A program made the position numbers and the translations under genes. Shown here one piece after another: positions 3,698-15,813 of a DNA stretch of 38,725 nucleotides. Source of the DNA: Candidatus Aerophobetes bacterium Ae_b3a (GTDB taxonomy: Bacteria; Aerophobota; Aerophobia; Aerophobales; AE-B3A); NCBI GenBank assembly GCA_005223095.1, contig NJBQ01000011.1, positions 1 through 38,725 on the forward strand. Direction: 5' to 3'. Within the stretch, counting starts at the first letter, position 1; every line of letters starts with the position of its first letter. The notes under the pieces are model-generated. The model made no database searches, had not been told where the DNA came from, and worked only from the letters and a program-made list of their open reading frames with translations.

Positions 3698-4675
3698 TTA
3701 TTGGTTATCGGTTAGTTTAATTACTTTTCCTTTTTCCAGGGAGGTAGTAGCGGCCAGGGTTAGTTTTAAGGTTTTTAAGGCGTCTGAGTAAGGTGATTTT
3801 ATGATTTCAGGATTATTTTCTTTTATGGCTTTGATGAAAAGGTCGTTCTCTGACTGATAAGGGTCAATGGTCATCTTCACCTCTTCTTTTTTCCCATTGG
3901 TAATCTTCAAAAGATGGGAAGAAAGAAGAAGGTCGATTTTAAAGCCTTTTCCGATTAAGTTAATTCCCCAATCACGCCCATGGGAGAGAATACAGGCAGA
4001 GGAAATACTTCCTATGGCTCCATTTTCAAAGTGAAGATTCACGCAGGAGGTATCATCCAGGTCATAATTTTCTACTTCTTCCATCAGACCCTGGGACCTT
4101 TGCCCATAGACTTCATTTACTTCTCCCACTAGATATCTTGCCAGGTCAAATATGTGAGTAGTTTGTTCGACTATCTGACCTCCTGATTCATTCTTGTTTC
4201 TCCACCAATAAACAGGACGCAGTGGGCAGAAGTAATAGCCTAAAATAAGGGCAGTTTTTCTTTTCTCAAGTTCTTTCTTGACTTTGTTTACTATGTCTGA
4301 ATATCTGTATACGTATCCTACGCTGGAGATAATACTATTTTTCTCAATGGCTTCATTGATTTGGTATGCCTTTTTCAGGTTTAGAGCAAGTGGTTTTTCT
4401 ATAAATAGGTTTATTTTCTTTTCCGCTGCCATAATTTCTTGCTCACCATGGGCAAAGGGAGGTAGGCAAATATATACAGCTTCCAATTTTTCCTTTTCTA
4501 ACATCTCCCGGTAGTCAGTATAGCAGTTAGTTGCGAAGGTTCTGGCTACTCTTTCAGCTTCCTTTTTATGTACATCACAGACGGAGACAAGCCTGGTATC
4601 TTCTATTTTTGCTAGTTTCTCCATATGGCGGACAGCGATTCTTCCCGTTCCGATGAATCCAACTCTGACCTTCAT
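3698..4675 (-). CDS. Gfo/Idh/MocA-family NAD(P)-dependent oxidoreductase
   Basis: A 325-residue two-domain oxidoreductase. The Rossmann fingerprint GFIGTGRIAVRH (residues 6-17) binds the dinucleotide, and IEKPLAL carries the conserved EKP lysine near residue 95. The C-terminal alpha/beta domain includes a His-containing QTTHIFDLARYL segment of the kind that forms the catalytic site in inositol- and sugar-dehydrogenase relatives. It likely oxidises or reduces a cyclic polyol or sugar derivative. It is the first gene of an operon: a strong promoter lies 70-100 bases upstream, AGGGAG precedes the ATG, and the LarA-like gene follows immediately. Pairing a dehydrogenase with a LarA-type epimerase suggests stereochemical interconversion of a sugar acid or polyol. 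Confidence 0.85.
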   Translation of the reverse strand: MKVRVGFIGTGRIAVRHMEKLAKIEDTRLVSVCDVHKKEAERVARTFATNCYTDYREMLEKEKLEAVYICLPPFAHGEQEIMAAEKKINLFIEKPLALNLKKAYQINEAIEKNSIISSVGYVYRYSDIVNKVKKELEKRKTALILGYYFCPLRPVYWWRNKNESGGQIVEQTTHIFDLARYLVGEVNEVYGQRSQGLMEEVENYDLDDTSCVNLHFENGAIGSISSACILSHGRDWGINLIGKGFKIDLLLSSHLLKITNGKKEEVKMTIDPYQSENDLFIKAIKENNPEIIKSPYSDALKTLKLTLAATTSLEKGKVIKLTDNQ

Positions 4676-4746
4676 ATAAGCTCCCTTATTATTTAACGAT
4701 ATAGGGATAGCAAAATACTTCTAAGGTTTTTATTGATTCATAAATA

Positions 4747-4775
4747 AGTATAGCATAATTGTTTTTATTTATCAA
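4747..4775 (-). promoter_or_regulatory. Promoter of the oxidoreductase/LarA-like operon
   Basis: On the minus strand a -35 box TTGATA (4775-4770) and a -10 box TATACT (4752-4747) are spaced by 17 bases. It points into the oxidoreductase gene and is divergent from the aroE promoter some 40 bases away. Confidence 0.65.
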
Positions 4776-4806
4776 ATTTGAGTTTAAATGAGGGTATTAG
4801 ATAAGG

Positions 4807-4865
4807 CTGATAAATTGACAGCGAGGGCGGATATGATAGAATATTGATGATTTCTATAAAGAAAG
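4807..4865 (+). promoter_or_regulatory. aroE promoter region, duplicated upstream of aroK
   Basis: The -35 box TTGACA (4815-4820) and -10 box TAGAAT (4837-4842) are spaced by 16 bases. The whole 59-base block recurs at 13220-13278 with 51 identical positions, nearly all differences being transitions. Conservation of both boxes in the copy supports function. Transcription would start near 4849, inside the longest possible aroE frame, which rules out the 4844 start. Confidence 0.7.
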
Positions 4866-4939
4866 TAGTTTGGTATAGGAATTTCCTTTTTAGACATAGA
4901 GCTGCGAAAATATGCGTCCTAATTGAGTTGAATGGAGCA

Positions 4940-5821
4940 ATGAAATCATCTGAGCAATTGAGTAAAATTGATGGCAAGACAAAGATAGCAGGGGTATTTG
5001 GCTATCCTGTGGAGCATTCTCTTTCTCCTCTATTTCATAATGCCGCCTTTGCCAGGCTGGGGCTTAATTTTGTCTATCTTCCCTTTTCTGTAAAGCCAGA
5101 GGAGTTGAAGATAGCCGTTGAGTCCATAAGGTCTTTAAATATAGTAGGGATGAATGTGACTATTCCTCATAAAGAGAAGGTTTTGCCCTATCTTGATGAG
5201 ATATCTCCTGAGGCAAAAGTAATAGGAGCGGTGAACACCATTCGTAATAAGGAAGGCAAATTAATTGGCTACAATACAGACGGGGATGGTTTTATTGAGT
5301 CATTAAAGAAGCAGGGAGGATTTGACCCCAAAGGTAAGAATGTATTTTTACTGGGTTCAGGCGGAGCTGCTTATGCTATCTCTTTTGCTCTTATTAAAAA
5401 TGGCATAAAGAAACTAATTCTTGCCAATCGTACATATTCTAGAGGAAGGGCTCTTTTAGAGCATTTAAAGAAAATTTTTCAGGATAAGTGCCAGCTCTCT
5501 CTGGTTGAGTTTATTGAGAAAAATTCCTCTTTTATAATGAGTGAGATTGACCTATTGATTAATGCTACTTCCATAGGTATGCATTCAGGTGACCCTGGCT
5601 TGATTGCTCCCGAAATTTTGCCGCCGAATATATTCATTTATGATGTTGTGTATAACCGAAAAACACCTTTTTTGAAGTTAGCAGAGGAAAGAAAACTGGC
5701 TTTTTTGGGAGGACTGGATATGCTCGTCTATCAGGGTGCCCTTTCCTTTGAAATCTGGACTGACCAAAAAGCCCCTGTAGAGGTGATGAAAAAGGCATTG
5801 AGGAGAGAATTATCGAAATAG
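4940..5821 (+). CDS. aroE: Shikimate dehydrogenase (NADP)
   Basis: Reduces 3-dehydroshikimate to shikimate. The 293-residue protein has the shikimate-binding serines in HSLSPLFHN, the catalytic lysine in VTIPHK, the substrate-binding Asp in NTDGDGF, the glycine-rich loop GSGGAA and the NADP-selective NRT motif. The frame is open from 4844, but the promoter -10 box ends at 4842, so that start would not be transcribed. The ATG at 4940 gives a normal family length and follows GGAG, although the spacing is only two bases. The same ATG context is preserved in the decayed copy upstream of aroK. aroC follows after 53 bases, forming an aroEC unit. Confidence 0.93.
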   Translation: MKSSEQLSKIDGKTKIAGVFGYPVEHSLSPLFHNAAFARLGLNFVYLPFSVKPEELKIAVESIRSLNIVGMNVTIPHKEKVLPYLDEISPEAKVIGAVNTIRNKEGKLIGYNTDGDGFIESLKKQGGFDPKGKNVFLLGSGGAAYAISFALIKNGIKKLILANRTYSRGRALLEHLKKIFQDKCQLSLVEFIEKNSSFIMSEIDLLINATSIGMHSGDPGLIAPEILPPNIFIYDVVYNRKTPFLKLAEERKLAFLGGLDMLVYQGALSFEIWTDQKAPVEVMKKALRRELSK

Positions 5822-5874
5822 AAAGGTGTTTATTAGGATGCTGAGAATATCCTGAGACCCAATGGAGGAAAAGT

Positions 5875-7044
5875 ATGCTGCGTTATTTAACCGCCGGGGA
5901 ATCCCATGGTAAAGGTTTGGTAGCTATTTTAGAAGGCGTGCCTGCTGGCTTGAAACTCTCCAGCGAGGATATTGACCGGGAATTGAGGCGCAGGCAAGCA
6001 GGCTATGGCCGGGGAAAGAGAATGAAAATCGAGAAAGATAAAGTAGAAATTATCTCTGGGGTTCGTATGGGAAGAACACTAGGCAGCCCCATTGCTTTAT
6101 TGATAAAGAACCTGGACTGGGAAAATTGGCGCCAGGTTATGATGGTAGAAGATAGAAAAGTAATTTCTCAGAATATTCCTCCCCTCACCCATCCTAGACC
6201 CGGTCATGCCGACCTGGCAGGAGCTATCAAATATAATTTTGATGATTTGAGAAATGTTCTGGAACGAGCCAGTGCTCGGGAAACAGCAGTTCGCGTGGCT
6301 ATAGGAGCTATTTGCAGGAGATTTCTTTCCGAATTTGAGATTCGAATTTACAGTCGGGTGATTCAGATTGGCAGGATAAAAGATGTGAACCAATGGCAGC
6401 CAATAAAAGCAAGTTATCAAATAATTGAAGATTCTCCCTTGCGTTGTCTGAATAAGAGAGCCGAGGCAAAGATGATAGCTCTAATTGATTCAGCTAAAGA
6501 AAAAGGGGATACTTTGGGAGGAGTATTTGAGGTGGTAATTCTTAACTTACCGGTGGGATTAGGAAGCTATGTTCAGTGGGACCTCAAGCTCGATGCCCGG
6601 CTAGCCTATGCTCTAATGAGCATCCAGGCAATTATAGGAGTGGAAGTTGGCTCAGGTTTTATGGCGGCAGAGAAATTTGGCTCCCAGGTTCAGGATGAAA
6701 TATTCTACGAGAAAAGTGAGCATAGGTTCTTTCGCCGCAGTAATAATGCCGGTGGCATAGAAGGAGGAATGAGTAATGGTGAACCCATTATCCTCCGAGC
6801 AGCCATGAAGCCTATATCCACATTAGCTCAGCCTTTGTCTTCAATAGACATCGTTAGCAAAAAGCCCGTAAAAGCAATGAAAGAGCGAGCTGATGTTTGT
6901 GCTCTTCCGGCTGCTTCTGTTATCGGGGAGGCAGTAGCTGCCTTTGAGATAGCCAGAGCTATGCGAGAGAAGTTTGGCGGAGATAGCCTTACCGAGACAA
7001 AAAGAAACTATTCTGGCTATCTCGATTATCTAAGAAAAAGGTAA
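5875..7044 (+). CDS. aroC: Chorismate synthase
   Basis: Converts 5-enolpyruvylshikimate-3-phosphate to chorismate using reduced FMN as catalyst. The 389-residue length is normal. Signatures include GESHGKGL near the N-terminus, [16 protein letters not shown] mid-protein and [13 protein letters not shown], which together line the FMN and substrate sites. GGAGGAAAAGT-like purine-rich sequence precedes the ATG. Its C-terminus [10 protein letters not shown] matters for the history of the locus, because a near-identical coding tail sits immediately before aroK at 13444-13470. The next genes are on the opposite strand, so the aromatic operon is interrupted here. Confidence 0.95.
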
Positions 7045-7069
7045 AAATATGTGTTAAATCCTGCCTTGC

Positions 7070-8050
7070 TCATTCTCTCTTCTCTTTATTCTTATCTTTC
7101 TGCATGAAAACTGTCGGTTTTTCTAGTTCAATAGCTTTTCTTACAAATCCGTCTGCTTTTTTTGAAAGGTCAATAGCTTGATTATAACCGAGGTTGGTTT
7201 TTATCATTACTATGGCTACTTTGACACTTCCATCTGCTTTTTTCAAAGCTTTCTCTGCAGCATCATAATCTAATCCTGTAGCTATCATAATCACTCTTTT
7301 GGATCTCTCCACTAATTTTTGGCTGGTGGCTTGAAGATCAATCATCATATTTTTGTAGACCTTACCCAGTCTGATCATTGCAGCGGTAGTAAGCATATTA
7401 AGGACCATCTTTTCTGCGGTGCCGGCTTTCATTCTGGTAGAGCCCATAATTACCTCGGGTCCTACCATAGGACAGATAGATACATCAACATCTATATCCA
7501 TCTGGGAACGTGGATTACAGATTACAAAGATGGTTCCCGCTCCTATACTTCGTGCCTTTTTTAAAGCGCCGATCACATAGGGGGTTCTTTTGCTGGCGGC
7601 AATACCTACAACCACATCCTTACTCGTTATTCCTCGTTTAATTATCTCGTTAGCTCCTTCTTCTGAATGATCCTCCGCTCCTTCAATAGCTTGCACCAGA
7701 GCCTTCTCCCCGCCAGCAATTATTCCCTGAACCATCTCTGGATTAGTACCAAAAGTAGGTGGGCATTCGGTTGCGTCGAGTACCCCTAGTCGGCCGCTTG
7801 TTCCGGCTCCTGTATAGAAAAGTCTTCCTCCCTTTTTAAAACACTCTACGATTATTTCTACCGCATTAGCAATATAGGAAATCTCCTTCTCTACCGCATA
7901 GGCTACCTTTTTATCGTCTTCATTGATGAGTTTAATTATCTCTTTGGTAGATTTGGTATCGATATCCATTGTATTAATGTTTCTCTGCTCAGTCATCAGG
8001 CTGGCTAACTCCCGGAAAATTCTTTTTTTATCTTGCTTAGATTTAATCAT
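7070..8050 (-). CDS. murQ: N-acetylmuramic acid 6-phosphate etherase
   Basis: Cleaves the lactyl ether of MurNAc-6-phosphate to give GlcNAc-6-phosphate and lactate in peptidoglycan recycling. The 326-residue protein has the SIS-domain phosphosugar loop TGAGTSGRLGVLDATE, whose final Glu matches the catalytic acid, and AIEGAEDHSEEG with the second conserved acid. A C-terminal helical segment of the usual type follows. AAGGGAT precedes the ATG. It is the last gene of the minus-strand recycling operon, downstream of anmK, and ends 25 bases from the end of aroC in convergent orientation. A small palindromic element separates it from anmK, so its expression may be partly uncoupled. Confidence 0.95.
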   Translation of the reverse strand: MIKSKQDKKRIFRELASLMTEQRNINTMDIDTKSTKEIIKLINEDDKKVAYAVEKEISYIANAVEIIVECFKKGGRLFYTGAGTSGRLGVLDATECPPTFGTNPEMVQGIIAGGEKALVQAIEGAEDHSEEGANEIIKRGITSKDVVVGIAASKRTPYVIGALKKARSIGAGTIFVICNPRSQMDIDVDVSICPMVGPEVIMGSTRMKAGTAEKMVLNMLTTAAMIRLGKVYKNMMIDLQATSQKLVERSKRVIMIATGLDYDAAEKALKKADGSVKVAIVMIKTNLGYNQAIDLSKKADGFVRKAIELEKPTVFMQKDKNKEKRE

Positions 8051-8068
8051 CTTAATCCCTTTATCTTT

Positions 8069-8212
8069 TTAAATAGGGACAGCGACCATTTTCAAAAGCG
8101 TTACTTAAGAGCTTCGAAATGCAGATCAATTCTAACGGGGAATAGGAAGAGTTTCTGCTTATTTATTCTTTTCCGAAATCCTCGCCAAAAAATGGTCGCT
8201 GTCCCTATTTAA
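8069..8212. mobile_element. MITE-like element with perfect 24-bp terminal inverted repeats
   Basis: Bases 8069-8092 and 8189-8212 are exact reverse complements of each other, including AATAGGGACAGCGACC and its mirror. The 96-base interior has no coding potential. It occupies the space between anmK and murQ. Perfect arms imply recent arrival or selection for pairing. A small non-autonomous transposon or RAYT-type palindrome is the likeliest explanation; as RNA it would fold into a long hairpin between the two genes. Confidence 0.7.
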
Positions 8213-8219
8213 TGTCTAT

Positions 8220-9425
8220 TTAATGATTCAAATTTATTATTATTTTACCCAGGATTACCCCTCTTTTGGCTCCGGTAGCCGAAGGAACATTTGCCGGATT
8301 AGCGGAGATAGTCTCGTTGGCCAAAATAGCAAAGATTAATGCCTCTTTGGCTTTATCGGAAATCCCAAAATCTTCAGTCCGAAATAGAGAAATAGGCTCA
8401 AACCTTTTCCTTAGAAAGTTAAGCAAAGTGGGGTTATAACTTCCCCCTCCAGAGATGATAATTTCATCTAGCTGATGCTGGGGAAGAATAAAGTTTTCAT
8501 AAGCATAATAAATGGAATCAGCGGTAAAGCTAGTAACTGTGGTAAGCAAGTCCTTGTTTTTTAGGTGTAGAGCTCTTGCTCTTTTAATTAGCTGACGAGC
8601 AAACTGCATTCCAAATTCCTCTCTTCCTGTGGTTTTAGGAGGTATTTTTTTTAAATAGGAGTGATTCATTAATTCTTTCAGTAATTTCCTATTTACCTTT
8701 CCTTGGGCAGCCATTAGCCCGTTTTTGTCGTAAGTTCTCTTGCCCTGACTGAGAATCTGGCTGACAGCATCAATGATCATATTGCCAGGTCCGGTATCGA
8801 AAGCAACCACATCATCTAGCTTGGCGGCTGCCGGGATTAAGGTAATATTTCCTATCCCCCCAATGTTTTGAATGGCTCTAGTCTTTTTTTCATCTCTAAA
8901 TAAGATGTAGTCTACATAGGCAGCTAATGGTGCTCCCTGTCCGCCGGCCGCCATATCACCAGTCCTAAAATCAGCTACTGTGGTTATCCCTGTTCTTTCG
9001 GCAATAACAGAGGGCTCTCCTATTTGAAGGGTTGATCTTACATAAAGGCTGCCTTCTCTTTTAGGTATAGGAATGTGGTAGATAGTCTGGCCGTGGGAAC
9101 CAATGAGGTCAATCTGCCAAGGTTCTAAGTTCGCTTTAAGAATGATTTTCAAAGCAGCCTGAGCAAATAGTTCCCCCAGAACAAAATTTAAATGGCAGAT
9201 CTTGTCCACCGTTCCTGTCCTGGGGGAGAAAATATTGAGTATCTTCTTCCGCACCGTTTGAGGATAGGGATATACCTGGAAGAAGAGAAGTCTTGCCCTG
9301 GTAGAAAGTCCATTTCCTTTTATCTTGACCAGAGCGGCATCTATTCCATCCACAGAAGTTCCCGACATTAATCCTATAACGATTTTCTCATTCTTCTTTT
9401 CTAACTGGATTATATCTTTACCCAT
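8220..9425 (-). CDS. anmK: Anhydro-N-acetylmuramic acid kinase
   Basis: Phosphorylates and opens 1,6-anhydro-MurNAc to MurNAc-6-phosphate, the substrate of MurQ. The 401-residue protein starts near GLMSGTSVDGIDAALV, the family signature and ATP-binding loop, followed by GSHGQTIYH, ADFRTGDMAAGGQGAPLA and FDTGPGN, all landmarks of the AnmK sugar-kinase fold. GGGSYNP near residue 320 is the adenosine-binding loop. It sits between the permease gene and murQ on the minus strand, so import, kinase and etherase form one route for recycled or scavenged cell-wall sugar. Confidence 0.95.
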   Translation of the reverse strand: MGKDIIQLEKKNEKIVIGLMSGTSVDGIDAALVKIKGNGLSTRARLLFFQVYPYPQTVRKKILNIFSPRTGTVDKICHLNFVLGELFAQAALKIILKANLEPWQIDLIGSHGQTIYHIPIPKREGSLYVRSTLQIGEPSVIAERTGITTVADFRTGDMAAGGQGAPLAAYVDYILFRDEKKTRAIQNIGGIGNITLIPAAAKLDDVVAFDTGPGNMIIDAVSQILSQGKRTYDKNGLMAAQGKVNRKLLKELMNHSYLKKIPPKTTGREEFGMQFARQLIKRARALHLKNKDLLTTVTSFTADSIYYAYENFILPQHQLDEIIISGGGSYNPTLLNFLRKRFEPISLFRTEDFGISDKAKEALIFAILANETISANPANVPSATGAKRGVILGKIIINLNH

Positions 9426-9467
9426 TTTTCTTAGGAAACTAAAGGCTCTTTTAAGACTCTGGAACTT

Positions 9468-10328
9468 CTATTTTATGGCTCCACCCACAATTCCCTTTAT
9501 CAAGTATTTTTGAAAAAGAAGAGCTACCAGTATAGGGGGAATAATGGCAACAAGAGCTCCGGCAGACATAAGATTCCACTCTGCATAGAATTGGCCCACG
9601 AATTCTGAGATAGTAACTGTAATTGGCTTGGCCTTAAGGGTATAGGTAAGAATTAAAGGAGCCATAAACATATTCCATGAGAAGAGGAAAGAAATAATTA
9701 CTACTGCCATCAGCCCGGGTAAAGACAGAGGAAGGACAACTTTAAACATTGCCCCCAGGAGTGTACAGCCATCGATTCGTGCTGCATCCTCCAGTTCTGT
9801 AGGTATGGAGCTGAGATAGCCCTTCATAAACCACGTATCAAAGGGCATTCTATAGGCAACGCTTAGAATAATCAAACCTGTAAGGGTATCCAGAAGACCT
9901 AATTTGCTAAATTCAGAAAAAAGGCCAATCAGTACCGGCCAACTGGGTACGGCTATCATTCCTATGATGTAAAAGAAGAATAGATTCTTTCCGGGAAAAT
10001 TTAGTCTTGCGAAAACATAGCCAATTAGAGGCGCTGCCACGGCCATAATCAAAGTGGTTGTTCCGGCAACTATTAAGCTGTTAATCAGACCTTTTTTGAT
10101 GAGTTCGGTGGCTGTTGTCCCTACCGCTCCTCGAAATCCCTTTCCTGTTATAAGGATACTTCTGAAGTTTTCCAGGGTTATTCGAGCAGGAATCCAGCGG
10201 GGAGGGATTGAATATAGATCCACTTGGGGAATTATACTGGAAAGAATGAGCCAGTACAAAGGAACAAGAGACCATATCAGCATAATGACAATACAGAAAT
10301 AGAGAAGAATCTTTTTGTGATTTATCAA
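9468..10328 (-). CDS. Carbohydrate ABC transporter permease (MalG/UgpE type)
   Basis: A 286-residue inner-membrane permease of the CUT1 sugar-transporter family with about six hydrophobic helices. The EAA loop that contacts the ATPase is seen as EDAARIDGCTLLGAMFKVVLP near residues 180-200. It overlaps the upstream permease gene by 4 bases. Neighbouring anmK and murQ suggest the cargo is MurNAc, anhydro-MurNAc or another amino sugar, but the substrate is not readable from sequence. No ATPase gene lies in the cluster; CUT1 systems often share one encoded elsewhere. Confidence 0.9.
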   Translation of the reverse strand: MINHKKILLYFCIVIMLIWSLVPLYWLILSSIIPQVDLYSIPPRWIPARITLENFRSILITGKGFRGAVGTTATELIKKGLINSLIVAGTTTLIMAVAAPLIGYVFARLNFPGKNLFFFYIIGMIAVPSWPVLIGLFSEFSKLGLLDTLTGLIILSVAYRMPFDTWFMKGYLSSIPTELEDAARIDGCTLLGAMFKVVLPLSLPGLMAVVIISFLFSWNMFMAPLILTYTLKAKPITVTISEFVGQFYAEWNLMSAGALVAIIPPILVALLFQKYLIKGIVGGAIK

Positions 10329-11242
10329 TATTTCACTTCCCTGTATATAGATTTTATATAAAAATAAGTTATTAAAAACATAAAAATACCAATTACATAA
10401 GCCAAGGCAGATCCAATCCCAAAACGACCTTTCTCAAATGCGAGTTCATAGCCGTACATCATTAAAGTCTTAGTAGCAGGGTCCAGTCCAGTTAAAGTAT
10501 ATATCTCATCGAAGACAGTAAAGGAAAATATCATAATAATAATCAGGGCAATGGTTAGCATGGGACGCAGAAGGGGAAGGGTTATATGCCACCAGCAGGA
10601 TCGAGCACCAGCTCCATCTACCTTTGCCGAATCGTAAAGCTCTAAAGGAATGGACTGAAGAGCACCCAGAAGCAGGATTGTCACAAAAGGGGTAAATCGC
10701 CAGACAAAGGTTAAAGTTGCCCAATTTAAGGCCATAAAGGGATCCTTTAACCAGGGCTTATAAGAAGAGATAAGGCCAAATTGATAGAGAATTCCGTTCA
10801 AAAACCCAAAATCACCACTCAGTAGCCATTTCCACATAAACCCATTAACTACGGGTGGTATGGCCCAGGCCAGTATAACCAAAGCCCGCAGGATGGACCT
10901 TCCCTTGAAGTTCTGGTTGAGAACCAGGGAAAATACCAGGGAAATACTTAAAATCATACCAACAGCTATCACTACAAAATAAGCTGTTCTTTTCAAAGCC
11001 TCCAGAAAAAGGGGGTCTTTAAGAATCCTGATATAGTTATTCAAACCAACAAAATGAATTCTCTCGGGCAGTCTTGTGTTGTAGTACATCAGGCTAAACC
11101 GGAAGGATTGGATAGCCGGAAAATAGGCCATAAAAAAGATCAAGATGACCACCGGCGCAAGGATCAAGTATGCCAGCCATTTCTGGTTATCAATAATAGC
11201 AGAAAGACTTCTCTGCCATTTTTGTTTATTTCTGATTTTCAT
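10325..11242 (-). CDS. Carbohydrate ABC transporter permease (MalF/UgpA type)
   Basis: A 305-residue permease with a hydrophobic first helix after a short basic N-terminus and an EAA loop read as YDSAKVDGAGARSCWWHITLP. It is the partner of the downstream MalG-type permease. The frame is open up to 11287, but that longer form would run through a perfect GC-rich hairpin (11256-11279). The ATG at 11242, starting MKIRNKQKW, places the hairpin in the space after the binding-protein gene, which is the usual design. No strong ribosome binding site precedes it, consistent with lower expression than the binding protein. Confidence 0.88.
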   Translation of the reverse strand: MKIRNKQKWQRSLSAIIDNQKWLAYLILAPVVILIFFMAYFPAIQSFRFSLMYYNTRLPERIHFVGLNNYIRILKDPLFLEALKRTAYFVVIAVGMILSISLVFSLVLNQNFKGRSILRALVILAWAIPPVVNGFMWKWLLSGDFGFLNGILYQFGLISSYKPWLKDPFMALNWATLTFVWRFTPFVTILLLGALQSIPLELYDSAKVDGAGARSCWWHITLPLLRPMLTIALIIIMIFSFTVFDEIYTLTGLDPATKTLMMYGYELAFEKGRFGIGSALAYVIGIFMFLITYFYIKSIYREVKY

Positions 11243-11255
11243 TCTTAGTGTTTGT

Positions 11256-11279
11256 GAGGGCGCCTGAAGCGGCGCCCTC
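11256..11279 (-). promoter_or_regulatory. Intra-operon stem-loop between binding-protein and permease genes
   Basis: A perfect 9-bp GC-rich stem, GAGGGCGCC with GGCGCCCTC, encloses a six-base loop. On the transcribed minus strand no T-run follows, so it is not a classical terminator. Stem-loops at this spot in sugar ABC operons protect the upstream binding-protein message from 3-prime exonucleases and reduce read-through into the permeases. Confidence 0.7.
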
Positions 11280-11299
11280 TTTCTCATTCAATTCTTACT

Positions 11300-12544
11300 T
11301 TACTCATACTCCTTTTTGAGCTCGTATACGTAATTAGCTAGATGACCTACCGCTTCTTCTGGAGAGATCTGATCCCTGACCATTCTCTTTATCGTATCGT
11401 TAGCTTCATTCTCAAATTCCGTATACCAGGGAGCCCGATAAGGGATGCGACGCACAAATCTTGCCTGCTCCGCCATTACATCAAAGCCCTCTATTTTACC
11501 TGCCTCTCCCAAAGCAGCAAAAGCAGCCTTGTTTGCCGGAAACATCCCATAGGCCTCATAAAGGGATTTTTGAATCTCTGCTTTGGTGAACCACACTATG
11601 AATTTATAGGCTTCATCTTTTTTATTGGAAAATGCGGATATACCTAAAGCTGCGGGTAAACTCCAGGTGAAGTGTTCATCCGGGAGGAGTATATATTTAG
11701 CATTAGGAGCAATCTTTGACTTTTCAGGATCGTTAGCAATAGTTAGGGAACCCTGCCAGGCTTGATGGAAGACGGCTTCTCCAGCCCAGAAAGAAGGATG
11801 GGGATTGACGCTTGTTATGCGCTCAGCTGAAATAAGCTCCTCTTCAAAGAAATCTCTCAGGAGCTTCATTGCTCCTAGTCCCCCTGAGTCAGGTTGATGA
11901 AATGTGGGATTGAGTTCTTCATCAAATAGCACCCCTCCCATAGAAAGAGCTATTAAGTACCAACTCCATGCCCGAGCACCAAAGGTTATGGGATATTTTC
12001 TTATTCCTTTTTGTTTAATCTCCCGACATAACTGGGTAAATTCCTCCCAGGTGGTGGGTACTGGAGCACCCATTTTCTCAAGAACGGAGGAATCATAGTC
12101 TATCATCACCAGTTGCTGGTAGATAGGTACACTGTATAGATAACCTCCAATTCTAAATAAATCAGCGCTTGTTAGCTCTTCCAGTAGGTCCGGGGAGACT
12201 ATCTCATCAAGCTGCGCAATGCTTTTGCTGGAAGAGAAAACCCCTACATTTGTTATTCCCACAAATATTACATCAGCCGGGGCAATGCCTCCTGCTGTAG
12301 CAATCATCACCTTGTCTCTCAGAGCTTTTTCGTCTCCAATGGTAGTTACCTCAACTTCGATACCAGTTTGTTTCTCAAATTCTACCAGTAAATTCTTAGA
12401 TGGTACTCCCCAGGGGGTTGACATATAAATTATTTTCTCTTTTGCCGCTAAAGATACGGATAGCAGGCAAAAACCAATAGCCCCAATGAGTAACGTACCG
12501 ATCACAACTTTCAATTTAAATGCTAACTTATCTCTTCTTCTCAT
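11300..12544 (-). CDS. Extracellular sugar-binding protein of ABC transporter
   Basis: A 414-residue family 1 solute-binding protein. The N-terminus is MRRRDKLAFKLK followed by a hydrophobic helix and a likely signal-peptidase I site after VSLAA near residue 34; no proper lipobox is seen. The mature part shows typical CUT1 features, such as FEKQTGIEVEV early and TTWEEFTQLCREIKQKG mid-protein. The ATG at 12544 is chosen because AGGAGGT lies six bases upstream, while the longer frame starts with GTG at 12586 without proper spacing. It heads the transporter/anmK/murQ operon and likely captures an amino sugar or muropeptide fragment. Confidence 0.92.
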   Translation of the reverse strand: MRRRDKLAFKLKVVIGTLLIGAIGFCLLSVSLAAKEKIIYMSTPWGVPSKNLLVEFEKQTGIEVEVTTIGDEKALRDKVMIATAGGIAPADVIFVGITNVGVFSSSKSIAQLDEIVSPDLLEELTSADLFRIGGYLYSVPIYQQLVMIDYDSSVLEKMGAPVPTTWEEFTQLCREIKQKGIRKYPITFGARAWSWYLIALSMGGVLFDEELNPTFHQPDSGGLGAMKLLRDFFEEELISAERITSVNPHPSFWAGEAVFHQAWQGSLTIANDPEKSKIAPNAKYILLPDEHFTWSLPAALGISAFSNKKDEAYKFIVWFTKAEIQKSLYEAYGMFPANKAAFAALGEAGKIEGFDVMAEQARFVRRIPYRAPWYTEFENEANDTIKRMVRDQISPEEAVGHLANYVYELKKEYE

Positions 12545-12689
12545 TGCCTTACCTCCTGTAAAGATTAAAATTTGGTAGTCTTTCACTCCTTAAAAGGAAT
12601 ATGCAGGAAAAAATTCTCACCTCCTCCCCCTACATAAATTCACTCCTCAATGCTTGTTTGGTAGCTATTCAGCCTTCTCATATTTCACC

Positions 12690-12854
12690 CTAATAGCGCT
12701 TAGTCTTTACTGCCTCGGTAGTTTTCTCAAGACATTTTACAGTCTTCTCATAACGAGACATCAGCACTACAAGAAAAAGTGCATCAATCACACTGAGTTG
12801 GGCAATTCTGGAGGCTATTGCTCCACTGCGAAAAGTATTCTCTTTCGCAGCCAT
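12690..12854 (-). pseudogene. C-terminal remnant of a MurR/RpiR-family regulator
   Basis: A 54-codon frame reads MAAKENTFRSGAIASRIAQL onward and ends in KTTEAVKTKRY. The segment FRSGAIASRIAQLSVIDALF is the characteristic end of the SIS domain in RpiR/MurR regulators, which sense phosphosugars such as MurNAc-6-phosphate. The N-terminal helix-turn-helix and most of the SIS domain are absent, and stop codons occur directly upstream in frame. It lies on the same strand 145 bases before the binding-protein gene, so it was probably the local regulator of this recycling operon. This truncated form cannot bind DNA in the usual way. Confidence 0.75.
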
Positions 12855-13219
12855 TGAACCTGCCCCTTACGCTTAAAAATTATTTTTATTTCATCTTAGT
12901 ATATATGAAAGAAATTGTTTGTCGACCACAAAATTTCCTTTGTCAATCGCCTTGAGTCGTATATAAGAGAGCTCTGGCCAGGTCAACCTTGGGCCACATG
13001 CGTTACTCTCTCCATTTAGCATACCTGGGCCTCGTTAATCTAAGGGCCAACAGGCACGATTTGTCGAGCCAACCTGATGAGGAGTTTCCCCAAAATTCAA
13101 GTGCACTTTCCCTAGAACGATTATATAATGAGGAATACAGCGTTTGGTTAACTGGAATAGGACAATTATCTTGTAATAGCTCTATTTTGGAGTGAAATTA
13201 TGGGGAAACTTTTATCAAC
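12855..13219. other. Gap with no recognisable gene
   Basis: This 365-base stretch lies between the regulator remnant and the duplicated aro promoter. Open frames exist on both strands, the longest at 12989-13195 on the plus strand, but none shows a known motif or a ribosome binding site. It is probably decayed sequence left by the rearrangement that truncated the regulator. Confidence 0.5.
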
Positions 13220-13278
13220 CTGATAAATTGACAGGGAGAGTGGATATGATAGAATGTTGATGGTTTCTATGAAGGAGG
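13220..13278 (+). promoter_or_regulatory. Duplicated aro promoter driving aroK
   Basis: A second copy of the aroE promoter block, with TTGACA at 13228-13233 and TAGAAT at 13250-13255, again 16 bases apart. Identity to 4807-4865 is 51 of 59 bases. Both promoter boxes are unchanged while the surrounding bases have drifted, which suggests the copy is kept because it transcribes aroK-aroB-aroQ. Confidence 0.7.
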
Positions 13279-13292
13279 CCAAGTGATATAAT

Positions 13293-13370
13293 TGAGATTA
13301 CCTCGCTCTGTTCGCAATGACGAGAAAAGAGCTTTGCTTGCAATAACGCCGTTCACTGGGTATTTACGTA
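13293..13370. repeat. CATTGCGAG/GATTGCTTC element (copy 2)
   Basis: Contains GAGATTACCTCGCTCTGTTCGCAATGAC and a tail TTCACTGGGTATTTACG that recurs after copy 3 at 15671. It interrupts the leader duplicated from aroE, lying between the promoter copy and the residual aroE codons. Confidence 0.55.
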
Positions 13371-13382
13371 AATTTAAACAGG

Positions 13383-13470
13383 GCAATGAAATTATCCAAG
13401 TGATGAAGAGAAATTGTGGCAAGATAGAGATAGCAGAAGCATTTGGCTATCTAGACTATCTAAGAAAAAT
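13383..13470 (+). pseudogene. aroE'-aroC' deletion scar upstream of aroK
   Basis: Bases 13383-13451 align with the first codons of aroE (4937-5006), about 55 of 70 positions identical with a one-base deletion that breaks the frame. From 13444 onward the sequence instead matches the last codons of aroC (7014-7040), 24 of 27 identical, encoding GYLDYLRK. The two parts meet at TGGCTATC, which occurs in intact aroE at 4999-5006 and in intact aroC at 7014-7021. The structure is what deletion between two direct 8-bp repeats would leave. The residual frame ends in an ATGA overlap with the aroK start. Confidence 0.88.
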
Positions 13471-14019
13471 ATGAATATTGTCTTAACTGGTTTTATGGGA
13501 ACAGGAAAAAGCAAAATAGGGAGAAGATTAGCCAAGAAATTGAGAATGAGTTATCTAGATACCGATGAGCTCATTGAGCAAAGGGAAAAGGACACTATTT
13601 CAGCTATGTTTAAAAAAAGAGGGGAAAAATACTTCCGCCGCCTGGAAACTAAAATAGTCAAAGAAGTTACCCTTCTTGATAATTATGTAATTTCTACTGG
13701 TGGAGGAGTTGTTTTAAGAGAAGAGAACACAAGGGCGCTCAAGAAAAATGCTCTTATTATTTGCCTTTTCGCCAGCCCTGAGGTAATTCTTAAGCGAATA
13801 GAAGGAAATGAGAACCGTCCTCTTTTAGAGATGAATAATCAGAAAAAGAGGATTGAGGAGCTCCTTACGCTCCGCAAGCCTTATTATGAAAAGGCAGATT
13901 TTAGCGTTGATACTTCCGCTTTAGATAGCGAAGGAGTAGTAGTAGAAGAGATAATAGAGTTTTTAGAAAAAGAAGAAATCTTCCAAAAGACTAAACTGGC
14001 GCAAAATGATAACCGTTAA
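13471..14019 (+). CDS. aroK: Shikimate kinase
   Basis: Phosphorylates shikimate at O3 with ATP. The 182-residue protein has the Walker A loop GFMGTGKS at residues 7-14, shikimate-binding DTDELIE, FRRLE and the GGG motif in ISTGGGVVL, and the lid arginine in NRPLL. The frame is open upstream to 13414, but that extension encodes the aroE/aroC scar, so the ATG at 13471 with MNIVLTGFMG is the true start. It overlaps aroB by 14 bases. The gene is expected to be transcribed from the duplicated promoter at 13228-13255. Confidence 0.93.
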   Translation: MNIVLTGFMGTGKSKIGRRLAKKLRMSYLDTDELIEQREKDTISAMFKKRGEKYFRRLETKIVKEVTLLDNYVISTGGGVVLREENTRALKKNALIICLFASPEVILKRIEGNENRPLLEMNNQKKRIEELLTLRKPYYEKADFSVDTSALDSEGVVVEEIIEFLEKEEIFQKTKLAQNDNR

Positions 14020-15525: not shown

Positions 15526-15574
15526 ATAGAAATTAGTTGCTGGTAGATGTTCAGCAAAGTACATTCTATGTTAT

Positions 15575-15688
15575 CATTGCCAGGAGCGGTAGGAGATTCC
15601 TCGCTTCGCTCGGAACAGGCTCTGCGATCCTAAAGACTGAGATTGCTTCACTTCGTTCGCAACGACAAGGTCCACTGAATATTTACGG
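15575..15688. repeat. CATTGCGAG/GATTGCTTC element (copy 3)
   Basis: Begins CATTGCCAGGAGCGG and continues through GAGATTGCTTCACTTCGTTCGCAACGAC to a tail CCACTGAATATTTACGG, the same tail as copy 2. Several short inverted repeats occur inside. No coding frame is visible. Confidence 0.65.
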
Positions 15689-15689
15689 T

Positions 15690-15776
15690 GCGTATTGCGC
15701 AATGAAATATACGACATAAGCAGTACGATGTTTGTTTGTTTTTACTATACGCTACCCGCTATACGCTAAACGCTAG
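15690..15776. repeat. Word-like palindromic repeats between aroQ and pheA
   Basis: CGTATTGCGCAAT at 15691 matches the perfect palindrome at 23924-23939, followed by ATATACGAC words. At 15741-15776 a run of CTATACGCTACCCGC and CTATACGCTAAACGC words is the reverse complement of the TAGCGTTTAGC family at 2212. Together with copy 3 they fill the gap before pheA. Confidence 0.6.
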
Positions 15777-15813
15777 AAATGTCTCCGGACATTTCTAATA
15801 AGAAAGGTGAAAG

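Follow-up and report, generated by a model that had tools for sequence, protein, structure and literature searches.

Campbell-type insertion-duplication leaves a full copy of the target region ending in a truncated 3' gene, followed by the foreign DNA and by a second copy that starts at the 5' end of the homologous segment. In bacterial experiments, tandem duplication or deletion has been found to hand an existing promoter to silent genes (PMC11111574), and the Salmonella his case of Anderson and Roth (1978) is cited there. In yeast, small-fragment-driven amplification begins with a DNA fragment that matches two sites and ends in a duplication (PMC3521702).

We analysed a window of 38,725 nt, the whole stretch of DNA shown above, from Candidatus Aerophobetes bacterium Ae_b3a. 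It is contig 117 of a metagenome-assembled genome (MAG) of 141 contigs (87% complete, 2.37 Mb; assembly only). In this window, an operon of aromatic biosynthesis genes is interrupted between aroC and aroK, and a decayed copy of the operon head lies directly before aroK. As in promoter capture (PMC11111574), a duplication joint or a deletion would have placed a promoter beside promoterless genes, with short microhomologies as marks. However, the genes that would gain the promoter here are native ones, the downstream half of an operon that foreign DNA has cut, and the structure is an old natural relic rather than a selected laboratory mutant. The yeast process (PMC3521702) likewise links a fragment to two sites and thereby duplicates the intervening stretch in tandem, but it was driven by homologous oligonucleotides, whereas a 6-kb foreign-like block occupies the joint here and the mechanism is a reconstruction. 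The topology is the same as that of Campbell-type integration, although the locus lacks an identified circular donor, integrase or shared segment. The literature on operon splitting by insertion yielded nothing closer. The processes are known; what is uncommon is that a single natural sequence lets all steps be read, and that it was the operon's own severed half which received the promoter.

Relics of the operon head before aroK

The intact genes and their counterparts before aroK are as follows.
4807–4861, plus strand: P, the aroE promoter (parent copy), with TTGACA at 4815–4820, a 16-nt spacer and TAGAAT at 4837–4842 preceded by TG (11 of 12 consensus bases)
4940–5821, plus strand: aroE, intact copy (Pfam Shikimate_dh_N, Shikimate_DH and SDH_C)
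5875–7044, plus strand: aroC, intact copy (66–75% amino acid identity to aroC of relatives)
13220–13274, plus strand: P', the copied aroE promoter upstream of aroK, with TTGACA at 13228–13233 and TAGAAT at 13250–13255, core boxes identical to those of P
13383–13451, plus strand: relic of the aroE start, ending in TGGCTATC (79% identical to 4937–5006)
13444–13451, plus strand: deletion junction TGGCTATC
13444–13474, plus strand: relic of the aroC tail, with its in-frame stop TGA (13472–13474) overlapping the aroK start codon as ATGA
13471–14019, plus strand: aroK (Pfam SKI; start conserved in relatives), heading the severed half aroK-aroB-aroQ-pheA-aroF-aroA-panC

Judged by alignment, the fossil at 13220–13470 is the aroE promoter, the aroE start and the aroC tail in this order, and chance is excluded. 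The promoter piece (13220–13274) matches 4807–4861 without gaps at 49 of 55 positions, or 51 of 59 if extended to 4865; the aroE start piece agrees with 4937–5006 in 55 of 70 columns (78.6%); and the aroC tail piece (13444–13469) shares 24 of 26 bases with 7014–7039, or 24 of 27 if extended to 7040. The first-pass annotation had proposed the same three copies with practically the same counts, and our realignment bears it out. The alignment scores of 80, 63 and 43, respectively, all exceed those of 2000 shuffles for each piece (means 14–18, maxima 28–39). Searched against the whole 2.37-Mb genome, the promoter piece gives E = 5.3e-14 and the aroE start piece E = 7.5e-9; the aroC tail alone reaches significance only within the window (E = 1.7e-5), and it occupies the position of the aroC tail in relatives.

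The two gene relics share TGGCTATC, an 8-bp direct repeat that recurs in the intact genes at 4999–5006 of aroE and 7014–7021 of aroC, in agreement with the earlier claim that they meet at a motif common to both genes. Random endpoints within aroE and aroC share at least 8 bp at a frequency of 0.0004. The locus therefore shows what a collapsed tandem duplicate would leave: matches collinear with the parent locus and with the middle absent, a junction formed by a direct repeat found at both parental endpoints, and an unduplicated order in relatives without the event. The fossil has diverged from the intact copy by 11%, plus indels. The leaders between promoter and aroE start (4862–4936 and 13275–13382) do not align to each other, because each carries a different dispersed repeat. 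These repeats, and a third one beside P', are listed here with matches in the source genome (G000) and in its only congener (G001).
4873–4932, plus strand: dispersed repeat family 1, in the parent leader; about 25 partial matches in G001, also on G000:C7 and C103
13279–13368, plus strand: dispersed repeat family 2, in the copied leader; 77% identical over 90 nt to G001:C160, with further partial matches in G001
13080–13211, no strand assigned: MITE-like repeat of 132 bp with inverted ends AGTTTCCCC/GGGGAAACT; 77% identical to G000:C103:37802–37933, partial in C99

Family 1 matches in G001 reach 93% identity, the longer ones 85–93%. The MITE-like repeat lies between the block and P', directly before P'; another copy stands upstream of a LacI-type regulator gene on contig C103 (L221). 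Short dispersed repeats of several families, with many copies in G001, occur in intergenic gaps of the window at 4873–4932, 13279–13368, 2307–2418, 8071–8213 and 15558–15780. Those in the two leaders entered later than the duplication.

Ancestral order and the inserted block

Four further features bear on the origin of the present arrangement.
3698–4675, minus strand: gfo, a Gfo/Idh/MocA oxidoreductase gene (Pfam GFO_IDH_MocA), ancestral neighbour of aroE by synteny with G002–G006
7045–7057, plus strand: probable stub of aroK (its first bases) behind aroC, at the ancestral joint
7070–12586, minus strand: foreign-like block of murQ, anmK, two ABC permease genes and a solute-binding protein gene (Pfam; compared with G011:C259)
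12689–12923 (region about 12599–12923), minus strand: remnants of an rpiR-type regulator gene and its upstream region (similarity to L163)

The nearest named relatives of aroC belong to Candidatus Aerophobetes MAGs and to a TPA assembly labelled Clostridia. Among family and order relatives with loci long enough, aroC directly precedes aroK in G002, G003, G004, G006, G008–G011 and G013–G016, and aroE-aroC-aroK is contiguous in nearly every one whose locus was readable. The G005 locus is divided between two contigs, and in one of them the aroK start adjoins aroC. In five family members, G002–G006, gfo is divergent and lies upstream of aroE. Given this contiguity and the position of gfo, aroE-aroC in the window is the old copy and the block before aroK is the new one. 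On this synteny, both gfo-P-aroE-aroC and aroK with its followers have kept their ancestral positions, and the DNA between about 7058 and the fossil is new. The first-pass annotation had held that relatives in which aroC stands immediately before aroK, without an aroE-like leader, would speak against the duplication. Such relatives do exist, but they do not refute it, because the leaderless arrangement is the ancestral state before the duplication.

In the window, 6.4 kb separate aroC from aroK, and all genes in between are on the opposite strand. The solute-binding protein and permease are 82–87% identical in amino acids and 83% in DNA to those of G011:C259, from another family of the same order, whereas the aro genes share 52–75% amino acid identity with G011 (aroC 70%, aroK 52%). 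In other family members, the best match of the solute-binding protein is 28%. This pattern indicates horizontal exchange, for which either direction is possible, and the disparity of 82–87% versus 52–75% agrees with horizontal acquisition of the inserted DNA, as an insertional duplication would require. The G011 locus has genes for an rpiR-type regulator and an acetyltransferase ahead of the solute-binding protein gene. What is left in the window is the final 155 nt of rpiR at 12689–12843 (90% identical to the 3' end in L163) and 51 nt of its 5' flank at 12873–12923 (84% identical); the middle of rpiR is gone and the acetyltransferase gene is absent from 12599–12923. Hence the block appears to have lost pieces, its regulator among them. 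Because the G011 contig, 4615 bp long, stops 270 bp past the shared part, it does not fix the far end of the block. A second, apparently broken murQ fragment, about 72–75% identical, lies elsewhere in the same genome (L169, G000:C84:8722–9294).

At the near end of the block, BLASTN alignments of copy 1 to three relatives pass the aroC stop and continue as far as 7057, which in those relatives lies about 15 nt into aroK. An alignment with its anchor at the aroC stop exceeds about 99% of random window stretches (p ~0.01), and 7045–7057 is probably a stub of the aroK start. The relic of the aroC tail with the following aroK start aligns ungapped to the aroC-aroK joint of G005 from a shared TAT codon onward. 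The ATGA overlap of aroC stop and aroK start is found in the relic and in G002, G005 and G009; the intact copy has changed at the aroC end, reading AGG TAA. Between the stub, which runs to 7057, and P', which starts at 13220, the joint also holds the 132-bp MITE-like repeat and about 136 bp of further DNA. The block would thus begin just behind the aroK stub, assigned with moderate confidence, and end before P'.

Proposed history and its alternatives

Sequence and synteny establish the duplication, the deletion junction and the derived position of the block, and from these we propose a history for the locus. Very probably, P' and the relics are a collapsed second copy of the operon head, which arose with the block, shrank by an 8-bp-repeat deletion and left P' to drive the severed half. 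Initially, P-aroE-aroC-aroK-aroB and the following genes would have formed one operon beside the divergent gfo. A foreign murQ-anmK-ABC block would then have entered between aroC and aroK, with duplication from P to the first bases of aroK, yielding the intermediate P-aroE-aroC-(aroK stub)-block-P'-aroE'-aroC'-aroK. Afterwards, a deletion of about 2 kb between the direct repeats TGGCTATC would have removed the redundant second aroE-aroC except for the aroE start and an aroC tail that carries the aroK start region, and would have spared the promoter. As a result, P' would now start transcription of the severed operon half. Because the block sits at the duplication joint behind the probable aroK stub, insertion and duplication may well have been one event, in which the foreign DNA would have bridged codon 5–6 of aroK and the stretch preceding P on a sister chromosome. 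Campbell-type integration would be an alternative route to the same result. The first-pass annotation had the duplication, the 8-bp collapse and the surviving promoter right; its view that the block separated the copies afterwards is the point that we would amend, since both may be one event.

A stepwise course, in which P-aroE-aroC was first duplicated in tandem, the second copy then collapsed and the block was inserted between the copies later and independently, differs from this history only in the order and number of events. It would produce the same final structure, and bacterial tandem duplications at short microhomologies are known (PMC11111574), but it requires the block to have hit the joint, with the stub (about 7057) on one side and P' (13220) on the other, by chance. 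We regard this course as possible though the less probable one: it is less economical than a single event, and the stub that speaks against it is evidence of moderate weight. The intact gfo-P-aroE-aroC might instead be a xenologous replacement, with the relic as the remains of the native genes, as the exchange of DNA with other lineages seen in the block would allow. However, gfo, aroE, aroC, aroK, aroQ and pheA are all nearest to G002/G005 (64–79%), and G004 scores lower for those genes that were compared, the pattern expected of vertical descent; in addition, relic and intact copy have lineage-specific features of aroE in common, which makes a replacement very improbable.

It is even harder to credit that P' was acquired as an independent promoter module or arose as a chance consensus. 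A 59-bp P-like stretch, 86% identical, does stand before lptF in G002, away from aroE, but the strict P pattern occurs only three times across nine family genomes, and the relics of the aroE start and aroC tail that follow P' in order contradict such an origin. An assembly artefact joining unrelated fragments is similarly far-fetched. MAG contigs can be misjoined, and dispersed repeats of the kind in which this genome is rich break and misjoin assemblies; yet a relic 11% diverged, with indels, is no chimera of intact genes, and its link to aroK reproduces the ancestral aroC-aroK joint.

As for the age of the collapsed copy, the relic carries the lineage-specific N-terminal extension of aroE, which G002 and G005 lack; the duplication is therefore probably younger than the split from them. 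Compared with the intact aroE start of the window, that of the congener G001 is 98% identical and the relic 79%, so the duplication probably predates the G000–G001 split, with the caution that aroE is constrained. The G001 assembly (69% complete) is without aroC and aroK and holds only the aroE start, at a contig end and in another context. There (L213, G001:C135:1–98), repeats and a CooC/MinD-like ATPase gene stand before it in place of gfo and P. Homology to the window breaks at 4903 inside repeat family 1, suggesting a repeat-mediated rearrangement, and the contig end corresponds to window position 5000, inside the TGGCTATC motif.

Predicted expression of the severed half

All 12 order relatives examined have a TTGACA-type promoter before aroE, and in nearly every case its spacer is 16 nt long. 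From 4600 to 14000, the best plus-strand promoter matches are P and P', each with 11 of 12 consensus bases; between aroC and aroK, no other plus-strand promoter of at least 10/12 was found besides P'. The extended -10 pattern matches exactly only at P and P' in the window, and in none of 100 shuffles. As in a captured promoter, the elements of P' are intact and correctly spaced (TTGACA-16-TAGAAT with TG). Promoter function of P' is supported by the conservation of this promoter in relatives and by the lack of a comparable one near aroK; it is likely that P', a predicted promoter, starts transcription of aroK-aroB-aroQ-pheA-aroF-aroA-panC. The boxes did stay intact in the copy, as the first-pass annotation stated, but their intactness does not serve as a sign of selection. 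The substitution rate of P' equals that of the non-promoter parts (6/55 versus 10/91 in the rest of the fossil, p = 1), so intact boxes are not by themselves evidence of selection, and the neutral probability of 14 unchanged core bases is about 0.2. No Rfam match to a known RNA element or riboswitch was found in the leaders or elsewhere in the window. The lptF-associated stretch of G002, a member of another genus (L164, G002:C63:3376–3433), lies about 240 nt before its gene and is closer to the window's P than to the aroE promoter of G002 itself; lptF of G005 is without it.

One further feature concerns the translation of aroK.
13403–13474, plus strand: possible leader ORF of 23 codons in the in-frame aroE'/aroC' relic, ending in the aroK start (translation of sequence)

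The Shine-Dalgarno sequence of aroK is very weak (-1.3 kcal/mol), and aroK overlaps aroC in some relatives. Before aroK, an ATG at 13386 opens MKLSK and a stop, a TGATG overlap leads into the 23-codon ORF, and the ATGA overlap leads into aroK. The deletion joined aroE and aroC in frame, and the relay remains after later frameshifts. Retention of the aroC tail may thus be relevant to aroK translation. It is conceivable, though rather unlikely, that the relic acts as a translational lead-in, ribosomes from the relic ORFs starting aroK as ancestral aroC did. As proof of constraint the relay was rejected, given that neutral decay retains it in about 6% of simulations; it is suggestive only.

In summary, foreign insertion into an essential biosynthesis operon should silence the downstream half. 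Here the operon head seems to have been duplicated together with the insertion or close to it, so that the cut half is predicted to have kept the operon's own promoter, and the position of P' predicts where the aroK transcript begins. The locus would thus be a natural record of how an operon can be divided and still be expressed, in a lineage that metagenome-assembled genomes alone represent here.
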